From: Steroidobacteraceae bacterium
GTDB lineage: Bacteria; Pseudomonadota; Gammaproteobacteria; Steroidobacterales; Steroidobacteraceae
Length of the DNA stretch: 34,487 nucleotides
Direction: 5' to 3'
Assembly: GCA_019683695.1 (NCBI GenBank)
Contig: JADGHX010000002.1
Span: 71,846-106,332 of the forward strand
Shown here: positions 28,847 to 34,487 of the stretch, piece after piece
Layout of the letters: each line of letters opens with the position of its first letter
Position numbering within the stretch: position 1 is the stretch's first letter
Notes under the pieces: generated by a model
The model's input: the letters and a program-made list of their open reading frames with translations, nothing else
What the model was told of the DNA's origin: nothing
Databases searched by the model: none
Position numbers and translations under genes: made by a program

Positions 28847-29239
28847 GTGAACAAAGACCTGAAGTTTCTGGTCGTGGACGACTATTCGACCATGCGCCGG
28901 ATCATCAAGAACCTGCTGCACGATCTGGGGTACGCGAACGTCACCGAGGCCGACGACGGCAAGACCGCGCTGCCGCTGCTGCAGAACGGCAACTTCGATT
29001 TCCTCATCACGGACTGGAACATGCCCGGCATGGCCGGGCTCGATCTGCTCAAGGCCGTGCGCGCGAACGAGAAGCTGAAGAAGCTCCCCGTGCTCATGCT
29101 GACCGCGGAAGCCAAGCGCGAGCAGATCGTCGAGGCCGCGCAGGCCGGCGTAAGCGGCTACGTGATCAAGCCCTTCACCGCGCAGACGCTGAAGGAAAAG
29201 ATCGACAAGATCCTGGGGAGCATGGCGGTACCCGCCTGA
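28847..29239 (+). CDS. cheY: chemotaxis response regulator CheY
   Basis: CheY carries the chemotaxis signal from CheA to FliM. The 130-residue single receiver domain has every expected residue: acidic pair D11-D12 ([12 protein letters not shown]), phosphorylation site D56 in ITDWNMPGM, switch residues T86 and Y105, and K108 in VIKPF. The start is a GTG at 28847, three bases after fliA. The gene order fliA-cheY-cheZ is standard in polar flagellates. This is the classical CheY; the second receiver gene at 32547 differs in its switch residue. Confidence 0.97.
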
Positions 29240-29248
29240 TGGCCCATC

Positions 29249-29905
29249 ATGAGCGACACCGCTGCCTTGCGTGAGACACCCGCGCGCGAGCCCGACCTGC
29301 TCGCGCAACTGGCCGACCTCACGTGCAACCTGCGCAACGCCCTCGACCGCTTCCGCCTCGACTCGCGGCTCACGGCGCTCGCGGAGAAGGAGATTCCCGA
29401 CGCGCGTCATCGCCTGAACCACGTGCTGAAGCTGACGGAAGCGGCGGCCCATCGCACGCTCGATCTCGTTGAGCAGTCCGGCCCGCCCGCCGAGCGCACG
29501 GCGCGCGAAGCCGCGGCGCTCGCCGGAGCGTGGGCGCGCTTTCGCGCGGGAACGATCTCGGTGGCGGAGTACTGCGATCTCATCAATCGCATCGATCACT
29601 TCCTCACCGCCGCGCGCACCGATTCCGAGACCGTGCGCGCGAATCTCGCGGAGGTGCTGCTCGCGCAGGACTACCAGGACCTCACCGGCCAGATCATCCG
29701 CGGCGTGATGAACCTGGTGTCCGAAGTCGAGGTGGTGCTGGTCGATCTGGCCCGGCTGACGGGGACCGATCCGAACGCCGTCCAGGCGCAGCCGACGGAC
29801 TCGAGCCGCGGCCACGGGCCCGCCGTGCCGGGCGTCGATCATGGCGCCGCGATCGTGAACGGGCAGGCGGACATCGACGCGCTGCTCTCCGATCTGGGTA
29901 TGTAG
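29249..29905 (+). CDS. cheZ: protein phosphatase CheZ
   Basis: CheZ dephosphorylates CheY-P. The 218 residues form a long helical hairpin with the active motif LLAQDYQDLTGQII, where D144 and Q148 make the DxxxQ signature (catalytic glutamine). The C-terminal peptide QADIDALLSDLGM is the CheY-docking helix, separated by a Pro/Gly/Ser-rich linker. The N-terminal region (LAQLADLTCNLRNALDRFRL) is typical. Start is ATG 29249, nine bases after cheY. The gene is followed by 34 bp and then motC; cheA, which often comes next, is not here. Confidence 0.95.
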   Translation: MSDTAALRETPAREPDLLAQLADLTCNLRNALDRFRLDSRLTALAEKEIPDARHRLNHVLKLTEAAAHRTLDLVEQSGPPAERTAREAAALAGAWARFRAGTISVAEYCDLINRIDHFLTAARTDSETVRANLAEVLLAQDYQDLTGQIIRGVMNLVSEVEVVLVDLARLTGTDPNAVQAQPTDSSRGHGPAVPGVDHGAAIVNGQADIDALLSDLGM

Positions 29906-29939: not shown

Positions 29940-30680
29940 ACGGACATTCTCAGCATCACCGGATTGGTTCTGGGCCTTGCGGCCGTGGTGGTCGGTGCCG
30001 TGCTGAAGGGCGCCGGCGTGCACGCGCTCGTGTCCGCTGCGGCCTTCATGATCGTGGTCGTCGGAACCGTCGCCGCCATCTGTGTGCAGACGCCGCTCGG
30101 TGTGATGCGCCATGCCCTGCGCATCTTCCCGTGGGTGATGCGGCCTCCGCCGCTCGATGGGCAGCAGCTCATCAAGAAGATGGTCGAGTGGAGCAACATC
30201 GCGCGCAAGCAGGGCCTGCTCGGGCTCGAGCCGGTGCTGAATCGCGAGCCCGATCCGTTCGTGCGCAAGGCACTGCAGCTCGTCGTGGACGGAAGCGAGC
30301 CCGAGAGCATTCGCGCGGTGATGGAAGTGGAGCTGAACACCCGCGAGGAAGCGGATACCCGCGCCGCGAAGGTGTTCGAGGGCATGGGCGTGTACTCGCC
30401 CACGCTCGGCATCATCGGCGCAGTGCTCGGCCTCATGGCGGTGATGCAGAACCTTGCGGACCCGAGCAAGCTCGGTCAGGGCATCGCCGCCGCGTTCACC
30501 GCCACCGTATATGGCATCGGGCTGGCCAACCTGTTCTTCCTGCCCGTGGCCGCGAAGCTGAAAGGCGCCATCGCGTCCCAGAGCCAGGTGCGCGAGATGG
30601 TCATCGAAGGCATGCTCTCGATCGCACAAGGCGAGAACCCACGCAGCATCGAATCGAAGCTCCAGGGCTATCTGCATTGA
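29940..30680 (+). CDS. motC: flagellar stator protein MotC (MotA family), probable ACG start
   Basis: MotC is the ion-channel stator subunit that works with MotD. The frame has no ATG, GTG or TTG upstream of TTG 29964, yet translation from ACG 29940 gives the canonical start (M)DILSITGLVLGL, matching MotC-type MDVLSIIGLIL, and 246 residues, close to the usual length. A GAGGG lies at 29928-29932, seven bases before the ACG. From TTG 29964 the first membrane segment would lose about eight residues and have no ribosome site. The rest is normal: membrane segments near 5-24 and 30-50, cytoplasmic loop with KALQLVVDGSEPESIRAVME, and the pore segments VYSPTLGIIGAVLGLMAVMQ and ATVYGIGLANLFFLPVA. An ATG mutated or misread to ACG is the alternative. 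Confidence 0.93.
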   Translation, partial: TDILSITGLVLGLAAVVVGAVLKGAGVHALVSAAAFMIVVVGTVAAICVQTPLGVMRHALRIFPWVMRPPPLDGQQLIKKMVEWSNIARKQGLLGLEPVLNREPDPFVRKALQLVVDGSEPESIRAVMEVELNTREEADTRAAKVFEGMGVYSPTLGIIGAVLGLMAVMQNLADPSKLGQGIAAAFTATVYGIGLANLFFLPVAAKLKGAIASQSQVREMVIEGMLSIAQGENPRSIESKLQGYLH

Positions 30681-30691
30681 GAGCGTGACCG

Positions 30692-31786
30692 ATGGCCCGA
30701 AGGCGCAAGCGCGAGGAGCACATGAATCACGAGGCCTGGGCCATTCCCTATGGCGATCTCGTGACGCTGCTGCTCGCATTCTTCGTCGTGATGTACGCGA
30801 TCTCCTCGGTGAACGAAGGCAAGTACCGCGTGCTCTCCGACTCGCTGTTCGCCGCGTTCCGCGGCACGCCGCGCACGATGGAGCCGATTCAGGTGGGCGA
30901 GAAGCAGGTGGGCTCCGGCGCAGACGTGAAGACCACCCTGGTGGAGCAGGCCATGATCGAGGGCCAGCCGCGCTCGCTGCTCGCCCCCGTGCCGGTGAAA
31001 ACGGGTTTGCCCACCCGGCCCGCGCGCGCGCATGAAGCCCACACGGACCTCACCCCGCTGCAGCAGCGGCGTGCGCTGGCATTGCAGCGCGTGGCGGACG
31101 AGGTGGAGCGCGCGATGGACGATCTCGTCAAGGCGAAGATGGTCGTCGTCCGGCGCAGCGACTTCTGGATCGAGGTGGAGATCCAGACGGACATCCTGTT
31201 CCCCAGCGCGAGCGCGCAACTCTCGCCCAGCGCCGTGAGCGTGATCGAGCGCCTCGGCGCAGCACTGGCGCCCTACCCCAACCCGATCCGCGTCGAAGGA
31301 CACACGGACAACCGGCCGATCCGCACGGTTGCGTTCTTCTCGAACTGGGAGCTCTCCGCCGCTCGCGCCGGCAGCGTCGTGCGCGTGCTGGAAAGCAAGG
31401 GGCTGGCGCCGGAGCGCCTCGCCGTGATCGGCTACGGCGAGCACCGGCCGGTGAAGACGAACGACACGCCCGAAGGGCGCAACGCGAATCGCCGCGTGGT
31501 CGTCGTGATTCTCTCAACGGATCTCGATCAGATTGCGCGGCCGAAGCGGGACCGGGACAACGCCAATCCCGACGCGGCACCCGACAAGGCGAAGGCGGGC
31601 GCCGCTGGCGGCGAAGCGCTTCCTGGCGAGTCTGCAGCGGCCGCGCCCGAAACGGTGATCCACGAAGCCGCAAGCGACGAGCCGGCGGGTGCCCGATCCG
31701 AGGCACGCGAGGCTGCCGGACCCGAAACGAGTGAACCCCAGGAGGCCGCGGCTCGTACGCTTGCCGACGCCTTCCCGCCGAACTGA
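30692..31786 (+). CDS. motD: flagellar stator protein MotD (MotB family)
   Basis: MotD is the peptidoglycan-anchored stator subunit. The 364 residues have a basic N-terminus (ARRRKREEH), the membrane segment with the ion-carrying aspartate D22 (IPYGDLVTLLLAFFVVMYA), a periplasmic linker, and an OmpA-type peptidoglycan-binding domain at about residues 160-270: ILFPSASAQLSPSAVSVIER, VEGHTDNRPIRTVAFFSNWE, LSAARAGSVVRVLESKG and GRNANRRVVVVIL. An Ala/Glu/Pro-rich, probably disordered tail of about 85 residues follows the domain, longer than in the usual MotD. ATG 30692 is 11 bases after motC. Confidence 0.95.
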   Translation: MARRRKREEHMNHEAWAIPYGDLVTLLLAFFVVMYAISSVNEGKYRVLSDSLFAAFRGTPRTMEPIQVGEKQVGSGADVKTTLVEQAMIEGQPRSLLAPVPVKTGLPTRPARAHEAHTDLTPLQQRRALALQRVADEVERAMDDLVKAKMVVVRRSDFWIEVEIQTDILFPSASAQLSPSAVSVIERLGAALAPYPNPIRVEGHTDNRPIRTVAFFSNWELSAARAGSVVRVLESKGLAPERLAVIGYGEHRPVKTNDTPEGRNANRRVVVVILSTDLDQIARPKRDRDNANPDAAPDKAKAGAAGGEALPGESAAAAPETVIHEAASDEPAGARSEAREAAGPETSEPQEAAARTLADAFPPN

Positions 31787-32002: not shown

Positions 32003-32374
32003 ATGAGTCATCCGCAGATCGTCAACGACGCCGGTGCGCCCCCGACCCTGATCTCCAACACGATGGCCGCCGAGTTGCTGGGCGTGGCCATGCGGGATAC
32101 CGAGCGCCCGGTGATGGAAATGGCGGGTGCGCTCGCGCGCATCTGCACCACCCTTTCGCGTGCATCAGGCGCACCCGGTTCCGCGCTCGCCTGCAGCGGC
32201 AATTGCGGCGAGATGATTCGCGACGACATCGCGATCTGCATCCAGAGCCTGCAGTTCCACGATCGGCTTATCCAGCAGCTCACCGCCGTGCGCAAGCTGA
32301 TGGGAGCGGACGCCGTTCCGGGGGAGCTGTGCAGCGGCTTCATGCCGCCCGAAGGGAGCATCGAACTGTTTTGA
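32003..32374 (+). CDS. small HDxxxQ-motif protein A, putative response-regulator phosphatase or modulator
   Basis: I do not recognise a named family. The 123 residues lack a signal peptide or membrane segment and look helical. The conserved parts are VAMRDTERPVMEMAGALARI near 28-47 and [20 protein letters not shown] near 76-95, with H86, D87 and Q91 forming HDxxxQ. The C-terminal tail is EGSIELF. Both blocks recur in the gene at 32999. The second block resembles CheZ (DYQDLTGQ), whose catalytic DxxxQ it keeps, and the HDxxxQ of HisKA_3 kinases; no ATPase domain is present. The gene follows a sigma28 promoter and precedes a CheY-like regulator, so a role on a chemotaxis receiver is inferred. 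No strong ribosome site precedes ATG 32003. Confidence 0.75.
   Translation: MSHPQIVNDAGAPPTLISNTMAAELLGVAMRDTERPVMEMAGALARICTTLSRASGAPGSALACSGNCGEMIRDDIAICIQSLQFHDRLIQQLTAVRKLMGADAVPGELCSGFMPPEGSIELF
32234..32292 (+). repeat. 59-bp direct repeat, copy 1 (in protein A gene)
   Basis: The segment encoding the HDxxxQ block is matched by 33194-33252 in the protein B gene at 53 of 59 bases by my count, in the same frame, while flanking sequences diverge. Three of the six differences leave the amino acid unchanged or conservatively changed. It marks common origin of the two genes and strong constraint on this block. Confidence 0.8.
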
Positions 32375-32465
32375 CGATGGGCTCGCGCCGCGCCGCCAGG
32401 CGCACGTTGCGCCACACGGGCATGGTGCTCCCGAGAGGCGCGTCACCCTGTTGCGGCCGGACCCT

Positions 32466-32492
32466 TCAGCCGCGGCGCGGGTGTGCCGATAT
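32466..32492 (+). promoter_or_regulatory. sigma28 promoter for the response-regulator gene
   Basis: TCAGCCGC (32466-32473), an 11-base spacer, and GCCGATAT (32485-32492), one base from the -10 consensus, lie in the 172-bp gap after the first small gene and 54 bp before the regulator ATG. The -35 half matches only at TCA. The rest of this gap shows nothing clear. Confidence 0.5.
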
Positions 32493-32546
32493 CCATACGT
32501 TGCTGCGCGCCAGAGTGCTTGCTGCAGAAGAACCGGAGAACGAACG

Positions 32547-32909
32547 ATGCCACGTATTCTCGCCGTAGATGACTCACCTTCGATGCGACAGATGGTGAGC
32601 ACGACGCTGACCAGCGCCGGCTACGACGTCGAACAGGCGGCAGATGGAGTCGAGGCGCTCGAGCTTGCGGGCAAGCAGCGGTTCGATCTCGTGATCACCG
32701 ACGTGAACATGCCGAACATGGACGGCATCACGCTCGTTCGCGAGCTGCGCGGCAAGCCGGACTACAAATTCGTGCCGCTCCTCATTCTCACGACGGAAGC
32801 CACTGCCGAGCGCAAGCAGCAGGGGAAGAATGCCGGCGCCACCGGCTGGCTCGTGAAGCCCTTCAACCCGGACCGGCTGCTCGCGACCATCGCCAAGGTG
32901 CTCGTGTAA
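32547..32909 (+). CDS. CheY-like single-domain response regulator
   Basis: The 120-residue product is one receiver domain: acidic pair D8-D9 (LAVDDSPSMRQMV), phosphorylation site D52 in ITDVNMPNMDG, T82 and K104 in LVKPF. At the CheY Tyr-106 position it has W101 (TGWLVKP) rather than tyrosine. It belongs to the chemotaxis-type receivers of the ILAVDDSxSMRQMV kind, distinct from the cheY at 28847. ATG 32547 has GGAG eight bases upstream; the frame extends to 32451 but that part overlaps the sigma28 promoter region. It lies between the two small HDxxxQ genes. No output domain is present, so it should act by protein contact. Confidence 0.93.
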   Translation: MPRILAVDDSPSMRQMVSTTLTSAGYDVEQAADGVEALELAGKQRFDLVITDVNMPNMDGITLVRELRGKPDYKFVPLLILTTEATAERKQQGKNAGATGWLVKPFNPDRLLATIAKVLV

Positions 32910-32998
32910 GCGCGTCGGATTTTCACGTCGAGCCGCACATCGTGGCCATGCTGCAGAGCGCCGAGGAGTCGACCAAGGCGCACGAGCTGGAGGTTTCC

Positions 32999-33463
32999 AT
33001 GGAAGCCGCCGCCGTGCTGCTGAGCCTTGCCATGCGCGACACCGAGCCGCCCGTGGCCGAGCTCTGCGAGGCCTTGTCGAGAATCGGCGGTCAGCTCGCG
33101 GCCTGGCGCACGCGCGCCGCGGCCGGGCAGGGCCCCGCGGGCCTCAACGGCCATGCGGATGCCGTACGCGCGCAACTCGAGAGCGACGTGGCGGTGTGCA
33201 TCCAGAGCATGCAGTTCCACGACCGGCTCATCCAGCAGCTCTCCGCCGTGCGGGGCCTGCTCGCCAGCGTGATCGAGCGCAGCCCGCTCGATGTGACGGG
33301 CTTCGGTGCGCATCGCTGGGAGGAGATGCTCCGCACCTTGCGCGAACGACTGAGCGAGGAGTCCCAGCAGCACCTGTTCAACTTGCTCCTGCGCACCGGC
33401 GTCGTGGATGAGCAGGGGCGGCAGATCCAGCAGGCGGAAGGGGGCAGTGTTGAGCTTTTCTGA
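32999..33463 (+). CDS. small HDxxxQ-motif protein B, paralogue of protein A
   Basis: From ATG 32999, which has GGAGG five bases upstream, the product has 154 residues. A GTG at 32942 or ATG at 32948 would add about 17-19 residues but lacks a good ribosome site. It repeats protein [21 protein letters not shown] near 10-29 and [20 protein letters not shown] near 64-83, with H74, D75 and Q79, and ends SVELF. Between these it carries an extra region, [20 protein letters not shown], absent from A. No signal peptide or membrane segment is seen. It follows the response regulator by 89 bp and overlaps cheB by 17 bp. A phosphatase or modulator role is inferred from the CheZ-like DxxxQ and the neighbours, and is not shown. 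Confidence 0.8.
33194..33252 (+). repeat. 59-bp direct repeat, copy 2 (in protein B gene)
   Basis: This is the partner of 32234-32292, lying 960 bp downstream in the same orientation, around the response-regulator gene. The identical spacing to the motif in both genes fits a gene duplication rather than a mobile element. Confidence 0.8.
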
Positions 33464-34487
33464 GGCACGGTCTGCGCGCACGCGGGTTCTCATCGTCGAT
33501 GACTCGGCGCTCGTGCGGCAGATCCTCACGGAGATGCTGTCGGCGGACCCGGAGATCGAAGTGGTGGGTTCCGCGAGCGATGCGCACGTCGCGCGCGAGA
33601 AGATCAAGTCGCTCAATCCGAACGTCATCACGCTCGACGTCGAGATGCCGAAGATGGACGGCATCACCTTCCTGCGCAACCTCATGCGCCTGCGGCCCAT
33701 GCCGGTGGTGATGGTCTCCTCCCTCACCGAGCGCGGCGCGGATGTAACGCTCGATGCGCTCGCGCTCGGCGCCGTGGACTATATGCCGAAGCCGAAGATC
33801 GATCTCGCAGCCACGCTCCGCGACTACGGCACCGAGCTCACTGAAAAGGTGAAGGCGGCGGCGCGCGCTCGCGTGCGTGCGCTCGACCCCGACCGACCCG
33901 GCGTGCTTGCTGCGAAGCGCCGCGCAGAGGGCTTCTCAAGGCACCTGCAGACCACCGATCGCATCATCGCCATGGGCGCGTCCACGGGCGGCACGGAAGC
34001 CCTTCGCGAAGTGCTCACCAATTTGCCTCCCGATGCGCCGGGCGTGGTGATCGCTCAGCACATGCCGCAGTCCTTCAACGTCGCGTTCATCAAACGCATG
34101 GACACGCTCTGTGCGATGACCGTGTGTGAAGCGAGAGACGGCCAGCACATTCTCCCCGGCCACGTGTACATCTCACCGGGCGACCGGCATCTCGTCGTGG
34201 CCCGTGACGGCGCACGTTACGTGTGCCGCATCGATGACAGCTCGCCGGTGAACCGCCACAAACCCTCGGTCGATGTGCTCTTCCGCTCGGTGGCGCAGAA
34301 CGTGGGCCGCAACGCCATCGGCGTGCTCCTCACCGGCATGGGCAAGGACGGCGCGCGCGGCCTGAAGGAAATGCGCGAATCCGGCAGCCCGACGATTGCC
34401 CAGGACGAAGCCACCAGCGTCGTCTGGGGCATGCCCGGCGAAGCCGTCGCCCTCGGCGCCGCCCAACGCGTCCTCCCCCTCCAGGAC
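33447..34487 (+). CDS. cheB: chemotaxis protein-glutamate methylesterase/glutamine deamidase CheB, partial (3' end outside window)
   Basis: CheB removes methyl groups from chemoreceptors (and deamidates glutamines) when phosphorylated by CheA. The 347 residues present contain a receiver domain with [17 protein letters not shown] and phosphorylation site D64 ([11 protein letters not shown]), a linker, and the methylesterase domain with the catalytic triad Ser179 ([11 protein letters not shown]), His205 (IAQHMP) and Asp301 ([10 protein letters not shown]). The sequence reaches [18 protein letters not shown], so only a few C-terminal residues are missing. The start is GTG 33447 (TTG 33450 is adjacent), preceded by a G-rich ribosome site and overlapping the protein B gene by 17 bp. 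cheA is not in the window. Confidence 0.96.

Follow-up and report, generated by a model that had tools for sequence, protein, structure and literature searches.

Proteins A and B, two small proteins encoded on either side of a cheY gene in a Steroidobacteraceae bacterium, belong to a real, conserved and unannotated protein family whose best known counterpart is CheT. Based on sequence comparisons and structure modeling, we believe that both proteins are probably CheT/CheZ-like helpers that speed the loss of phosphate from a receiver of the CheY type, the most likely substrate being the receiver whose gene lies between theirs.

Gene Layout of the Locus

The window (the whole stretch of DNA analyzed) is 34,487 nucleotides long and contains the following features:

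28847..29239, + strand: first CheY, adjoining cheZ (PF00072, E 3.1e-31)
29249..29905, + strand: ordinary CheZ (PF04344, E 3.9e-54; catalytic pair D144/Q148)
29964..31786, + strand: MotA-/MotB-type stator genes, between cheZ and A (PF01618, PF13677, PF00691)
32003..32374, + strand: protein A, an ORF of 123 aa; predicted stand-alone F[H/Y]DxxxQ helical protein, homolog of B and conserved in relatives
32255..32275, + strand: motif FHDRLIQ of A (F85-D87-Q91), candidate catalytic pair, from the sequence
32357..32371, + strand: C-terminal tail SIELF of A, from the sequence
32547..32909, + strand: second CheY-type receiver, single-domain, 120 aa (PF00072, E 5.5e-31); proposed substrate
32942..33463, + strand: protein B, of the same family as A; 173 aa from GTG, 171 aa from the ATG at 32948
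33215..33235, + strand: motif FHDRLIQ of B, D94/Q98 (GTG numbering) or D92/Q96 (ATG numbering), from the sequence
33446..33460, + strand: C-terminal tail SVELF of B, from the sequence
33447..34487, + strand: cheB (PF01339, E 6.7e-64; PF00072, E 2.8e-22)

The ORFs confirmed the layout given in a preliminary description of this DNA, in which A and B flank a single-domain response regulator and lead into cheB, and in which the cell has a normal CheZ; the latter was the single match to PF04344 in the host genome. The receiver between A and B, which is not the CheY adjoining cheZ, is intact in sequence, with D8, D9, D52, T82/T83 and K104 all present. The start of cheB was set at GTG 33447 (a longer ORF begins at 33408), and the gene is cut by the contig end, which is also the window end.

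A and B are homologous far above chance (47.8% identity over 92 aa, E 5.9e-22), B having the fuller C-terminal region, and the shared block and SIELF/SVELF endings that had been described for them were borne out by the sequence. The glutamines previously assigned to the two proteins, Q91 and Q79, were correct for A, where Q91 pairs with D87; Q79 does not fit B, whose pair is D94/Q98.

A Conserved Family without Annotation

Scans of A and B against Pfam and NCBIfam returned no meaningful family match. At E-values up to 10, Pfam gave two unrelated weak families for A and none for B, and neither protein had a Pfam match to PF04344, PF00015, HisKA_3 or CheC/CheX/FliY. Pfam/NCBIfam scans of a 65-member alignment of the family gave no plausible family among the 25 shown, phmmer of B against PDB sequences gave no match at E-values up to 10, tblastn against plasmids found nothing with either B or one relative as the query, and a search for related loci from B alone produced 60 stretches that matched a pattern, none of which was confirmed. 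Within the host genome A and B were the only family members, two extra matches to B (E 0.08 and 0.2) being ORFs that looked unrelated. A protein search found family matches in 7 of 40 genomes, host included; a profile built from eight members had matches in 53 of a class-wide sample of 274 genomes, and one built from 65 members in 87 of 398 phylum-sampled genomes, the last count taking stand-alone and receptor architectures together.

The aspartate and glutamine of the motif were kept in all 65 aligned stand-alone relatives, with varying residues between them. This conservation arises partly by selection, as the search pattern that supplied 29 of the 65 rows itself included both residues, and the profile searches also favor the D/Q motif. 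Across all fetched loci there were 123 distinct profile-matched stretches, three of which did not cover the motif; D and Q were kept in 119 of the other 120, the exception (the second half of L164) retaining D with K in place of Q. The first pattern had missed the motif in 5 of 12 loci, in all five of which the profile alignment showed D and Q to be kept, as QFQD..xQ in three and as QNIDRV.Q in L161 and L163. The C-terminal residue was F in 64 of the 65 relatives, and [IV][ED]LF was present in 56; in the one exception to the terminal F (L052), GVIDLF is followed by further residues.

The residue before the aspartate was H in 38 of the 65 relatives and Y in 27, and because of this replacement the family signature is F[H/Y]DxxxQ, not HDxxxQ as had been proposed. 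The same position bears on the possibility that A and B are HisKA_3-like, with the H acting as a phospho-acceptor or as part of a kinase-phosphatase motif. There is a local HDxxxQ resemblance, and HisKA_3 did match one of the 65 members (E 0.011). However, neither A nor B was matched, and the H, besides being Y in these relatives, is replaced by Q or E in all 26 aligned receptors that carry the module (see below). The HisKA_3 reading was rejected as the H is not conserved, and we consider it highly improbable. Of the two parallels that had been drawn at the outset, the one with HisKA_3 is therefore not supported, whereas the one with CheZ holds up through the receptors discussed below.

Other proteins with parts of this signature were also observed. 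Several related Y-type members begin PDLDWSQ. Two proteins of ~580 aa from other genomes of the phylum (L164:628-2361 and L169:919-2664) have an F.D..xQ module, a YTMDxER segment and a FELF/IELF tail; that of L164 contains a second, degenerate copy of the module (D kept, Q to K) and matched no Pfam family up to E 0.01. In genomes of family f212, proteins of ~1100-1500 aa have Q-N-[IV]-D-R-V-x-Q where they match the DxxxQ portion of the profile (G324, G327, G438, G442, G458, G478 and similar; loci L161-L172).

Gene Neighborhoods of the Relatives

Gene context was counted at 54 loci, two of which were left out as the contig end was too near. The next gene was cheR in 34 of the 52 testable loci, and in 24 a cheY lay upstream at a distance of no more than 1.5 kb; among the long-flank family loci, none yielded a CheZ ORF. 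Among the remaining 18, some have che genes adjacent (e.g., L008, L014, L038, L045, and L093 with cheD and cheA), and in others, such as L084, L086 and L088-L091, where the family ORFs are 190-290 aa long, no nearby che gene was recognized by the small reference set.

The host window is unusual in having two family copies around one cheY. The host genome also has a second che cluster (G000:C167, L218:6850-16117) with the order cheA-cheW-MCP-cheY-cheR-cheD-cheB, in which the MCP ends WQEF and CheD carries GGDIELFT. In this cluster cheR directly follows cheY, without the A/B-family gene that many relatives have before cheR. Because no family member lies between these two genes, a relocation and duplication of the family gene is plausible, and the A/B pair would be the product of the duplication.

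The upstream CheYs of the 24 loci were closer by blastp to the second CheY of the host than to the first, which argues against A and B acting on CheB or on the flagellar CheY beside cheZ and not on the CheY between them. Such a target would suit the abutment of B on cheB and the position of the pair in the flagellar cluster behind the stator genes, but the flagellar CheY already has CheZ adjacent to it, and we regard either target as rather improbable.

Predicted Fold

The AlphaFold2 model of B, built with 65 sequences (mean pLDDT 80, pTM 0.58), has helices at residues 2-58 and 63-111 followed by short helices, in keeping with the original suggestion that A and B are stand-alone helical proteins. 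Foldseek of this model against the PDB found nothing below E 1e-3. The structural matches to it included E. coli CheZ (1kmi; Z 9.7, rmsd 2.2 Å over 112 residues), a match that ties with many unrelated helical hairpins. When the superposition on 1kmi was read ungapped after the turn, D92/Q96 of B lay opposite CheZ residues 136/140, one heptad off the catalytic pair, which we take to be D143/Q147. These results are consistent with B being a long helical hairpin, a fold that is compatible with CheZ and not diagnostic of it. The preliminary description had named loss of D or Q in homologs, a fold unlike a helical hairpin or bundle, and a known unrelated family as signs against its proposal; in the material examined the pair was kept, a hairpin was predicted, and no unrelated family was assigned.

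A Receptor-Borne Form of the Module

The A/B-family profile also matched proteins of ~400 aa with an MCP signaling domain (PF00015 in all 13 that were scanned). The C-terminus of these short receptors contains LQFQDRVSQ or LQFEDIxTQ, one of the two forms being followed by YTxxEQR, and a tail such as DITFF or DIELF. Alignment of 26 receptors showed D and Q kept in all 26, each of which ends in F. Comparison of the small family with the receptor C-termini gave E 1.9e-14, tail included (8.7e-14 with 13 receptors). The C-half of the family matched the receptors at E 8.5e-16 and the N-helices alone at E 1.5e-4 (score 22.2, against 12.0 for the best of 50 column shuffles), whereas the receptor middle gave a score of only 13.5. 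Both long helices of the family thus match receptor parts that flank the signaling domain, and an AlphaFold2 model of one receptor (pLDDT 77, pTM 0.40) has helix breaks at 132-141 and 319, on either side of the signaling hairpin. In the 138-column local alignment that gave E 1.9e-14, the start of the small family falls on the hairpin of the receptor itself and not on the N-terminal helix, so a nested hairpin is read from the N-helix match and from the helix breaks of the receptor model, whose pTM is only 0.40. The economical reading of these alignments and models would be a single hairpin family whose members may or may not bear an MCP tip, the module being common to A/B and the receptors.

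The matches around the signaling domain would also be expected if A and B were tip-less relatives of receptors that serve as adaptors, binding CheR, CheB or CheD through their base and tail without catalysis. The location of the family gene before cheR in many loci, the occurrence of the tail in CheD, and the binding of S. meliloti CheT to CheR, as given in the available text of PMC12654446, all agree with an adaptor. However, D and Q are strictly conserved around residues that vary, a pattern that points to catalysis, and the C-terminus of P. aeruginosa McpA, with Val at the second position, is described as binding none of four CheR homologs (Ortega et al., available text of PMC7184735). We consider a purely adaptor function unlikely, and favor the helper function in dephosphorylation.

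A profile of the receptor C-terminus had matches in 86 of 274 class genomes, a count that includes small-family members and two CheZ genes. Twelve of 15 regions chosen for a nearby module match hold a module receptor together with cheY and cheA. In L186 and L187 the order is cheR-cheD-cheB-receptor with module-STAS-receiver/SpoIIE phosphatase, which matches the stage-1 F7 order outlined in the accessible part of PMC7184735. That order includes an mcpA-like receptor, and stage 1 or 2 F7 genomes are described there as having cheZ only in the F6 system; the same source reports high conservation of the C-terminus of McpA-like receptors and terms the role of this C-terminus "important yet unclear". 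VCA1088 and VC1394 are 24H receptors with a transmembrane region, encoded with F7 and F9 systems, according to the accessible part of PMC7534058. Judged by gene context and tail, the module receptors appear to resemble these McpA-like/24H receptors.

Relationship to CheZ

The outcome of the profile check against PF04344 that had been suggested was divided. Direct comparison of the small family with CheZ was not significant (E 0.21, out of register), whereas the receptor form, its pair in register, matched CheZ at E 5.5e-4 and 4.7e-4. When only the C-terminal part of 13 receptors was used, the value was 7.9e-5, against 0.012 for the best of 60 shuffles. These hhalign E-values are pairwise and not database-calibrated, and the probabilities are modest (about 30% for receptor-CheZ and 84% for CheT-family). 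With an HMM made from receptors only, D and Q landed on the CheZ pair in 30 of 30 CheZs, only the top few scores being significant, and a class-wide search with this HMM gave matches inside two CheZ genes (G115:C85 and G142:C180). Conversely, with E-values up to 0.1 admitted, PF04344 recognized 2 of 13 receptors (best 6.6e-4), and PF04344 and the family model matched the same ORFs of 403 and 422 aa (G071:C227 and G154:C111), below the PF04344 cut-off. Together, these comparisons support homology of A and B to CheZ via the receptor-borne form.

Relationship to CheT

CheT of S. meliloti has a DXXXQ motif and a predicted CheZ-like structure, and dephosphorylates one of two CheYs (CheY1-P); it has homologs in related Alphaproteobacteria, e.g., Atu0522 of Agrobacterium fabrum, and these are stated to lack significant homology with the chemotaxis proteins known from the paradigm model (available text of PMC12654446). 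We assembled a CheT-position set of five proteins encoded after cheD in genomes from other classes of the same phylum; in two cases the gene lies between cheD and fliF (PF01514). The ORFs were picked by position, a D...Q also being required for three of the five (L195-L197); an ORF with DxxxQ that follows cheB in L188 was seen and left out of the set. All five proteins have DxxxQ and end in or near an acidic-hydrophobic-F tail. Aligned with the A/B family by hhalign, they gave E 6.9e-6 and a score of 38.7 with DxxxQ in register, compared with 18.8 for the best of 60 column shuffles and 20.5 for the reversed control. The comparison of the CheT-position proteins with CheZ was not significant (0.073, against 0.024 for the best shuffle). 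When one of these proteins was used as the query, only 4 of the 121 genomes from its order gave a match, and the reach of a single sequence is therefore short. By this comparison, made with CheT-position proteins, A and B are best described as gammaproteobacterial CheT-like proteins.

The C-Terminal Tail and CheD

The ELF tail had been proposed as a peptide for docking to CheY, an idea weakened by the tails of CheD. In the first locus set, 36 of 36 full-length CheD-type ORFs (LGSC motif) carry [VI][ED]LF at the C-terminus or a few residues before it (a script placed 13 exactly at the end, and the others were identified by eye); the four of these that were scanned, from L034, L074, L077 and L093, were all PF03975. 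In the non-gammaproteobacterial loci L186-L190 and L195-L197, the endings of eight CheDs are IDLFD, IELFD, VELFG, SIEFF (two), VDLF, LELF and VELF. In the clusters chosen for a nearby module match, where the receptor tail is [ILVT]TFF, ELF was present in only one of 12 CheDs (L213) and SITFF in one (L214), with neither in the other 10; the receptor tail SISFF of L214 agrees with its CheD tail, SITFFDD. W[EQTR]EF, which resembles the usual CheR/CheB pentapeptide, is the ending of many other receptors encoded in these operons. Since CheD bears the same tail in many loci, the tail is not phosphatase-specific, and its distribution suggests a tag for docking to some shared partner. A tail of the same type, SGSVDLF, was also seen at the end of a GGDEF protein (PF00990) near a che cluster (L012:7733-8767, − strand).

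Discussion

It is established that in CheZ an Asp and a Gln inserted into the phosphorylated receiver speed hydrolysis. We propose that A and B would act in this way. In each, two long antiparallel helices would form a hairpin, followed by a short C-terminal region that is also helical and by a flexible tail. The second long helix would bring the Asp and Gln, separated by one helical turn, into the active site of the receiver in its phosphorylated state, where the Gln would position the attacking water as in CheZ; specifically, Q91/D87 of A and Q98/D94 of B would insert into the receiver encoded between them and speed its hydrolysis. The [I/V]ELF tail may tether A and B to a partner shared with CheD, and the family could represent the free form of a module that is also part of short chemoreceptors. 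That the cell already has a CheZ counts against the helper reading. The presence of this CheZ, together with the discrimination of S. meliloti CheT between two CheYs described in the available text of PMC12654446, suggests by analogy that the two CheYs of the host are under separate control.

We speculate further, as a possibility held only tentatively, that the short chemoreceptors of clusters without their own cheZ, those of the McpA-like/24H type, are receptor-phosphatase fusions, in which the MCP hairpin is set into the tip of a CheT/CheZ-like hairpin. The state of the receptor could then directly gate CheY dephosphorylation, with A, B and CheT being the device without the tip, and the [IV]ELF/ITFF tail would be a docking code often shared by CheD. 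In a literature search that covered few subscription journals, none of the matches listed dealt with a chemoreceptor-borne CheY phosphatase or with wider CheT homologs. If this speculation is correct, a CheT/CheZ-like pair in small proteins and receptors would answer how CheYs without their own CheZ are switched off; the C-terminus of McpA-like receptors would gain a role through the same testable answer, and CheT would be placed in a wider family.

Among known systems, the CheY phosphatases CheC/CheX/FliY have the role proposed here for A and B, which have no Pfam match to them. The McpA-like/24H receptors (P. aeruginosa CttP/PA0180, V. cholerae VCA1088 and VC1394) resemble the short receptors of this study in gene context and in a conserved non-pentapeptide C-terminus, as far as these are described in the accessible parts of PMC7184735 and PMC7534058; A and B differ in having no MCP signaling hairpin. 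CheZ (PF04344) shares with the A/B family a DxxxQ pair and a terminal F, and the long helical hairpin predicted for the latter is compatible with CheZ. However, A and B are not matched by PF04344, their pair comes into register with that of CheZ only via the receptor form, and they lack the DDLLSSLGF tail (the consensus of 26 CheZs ends VDDLLSSLGF). CheT, like A and B, is a small protein of a che cluster with DXXXQ. CheT-position genes follow cheD, whereas A and B flank cheY in a gammaproteobacterium and many of their relatives precede cheR. The original view of A and B as a candidate new module therefore holds in that their family is unannotated, but "new" needs qualifying, as CheT is a published precedent in the Alphaproteobacteria (PMC12654446, available text).
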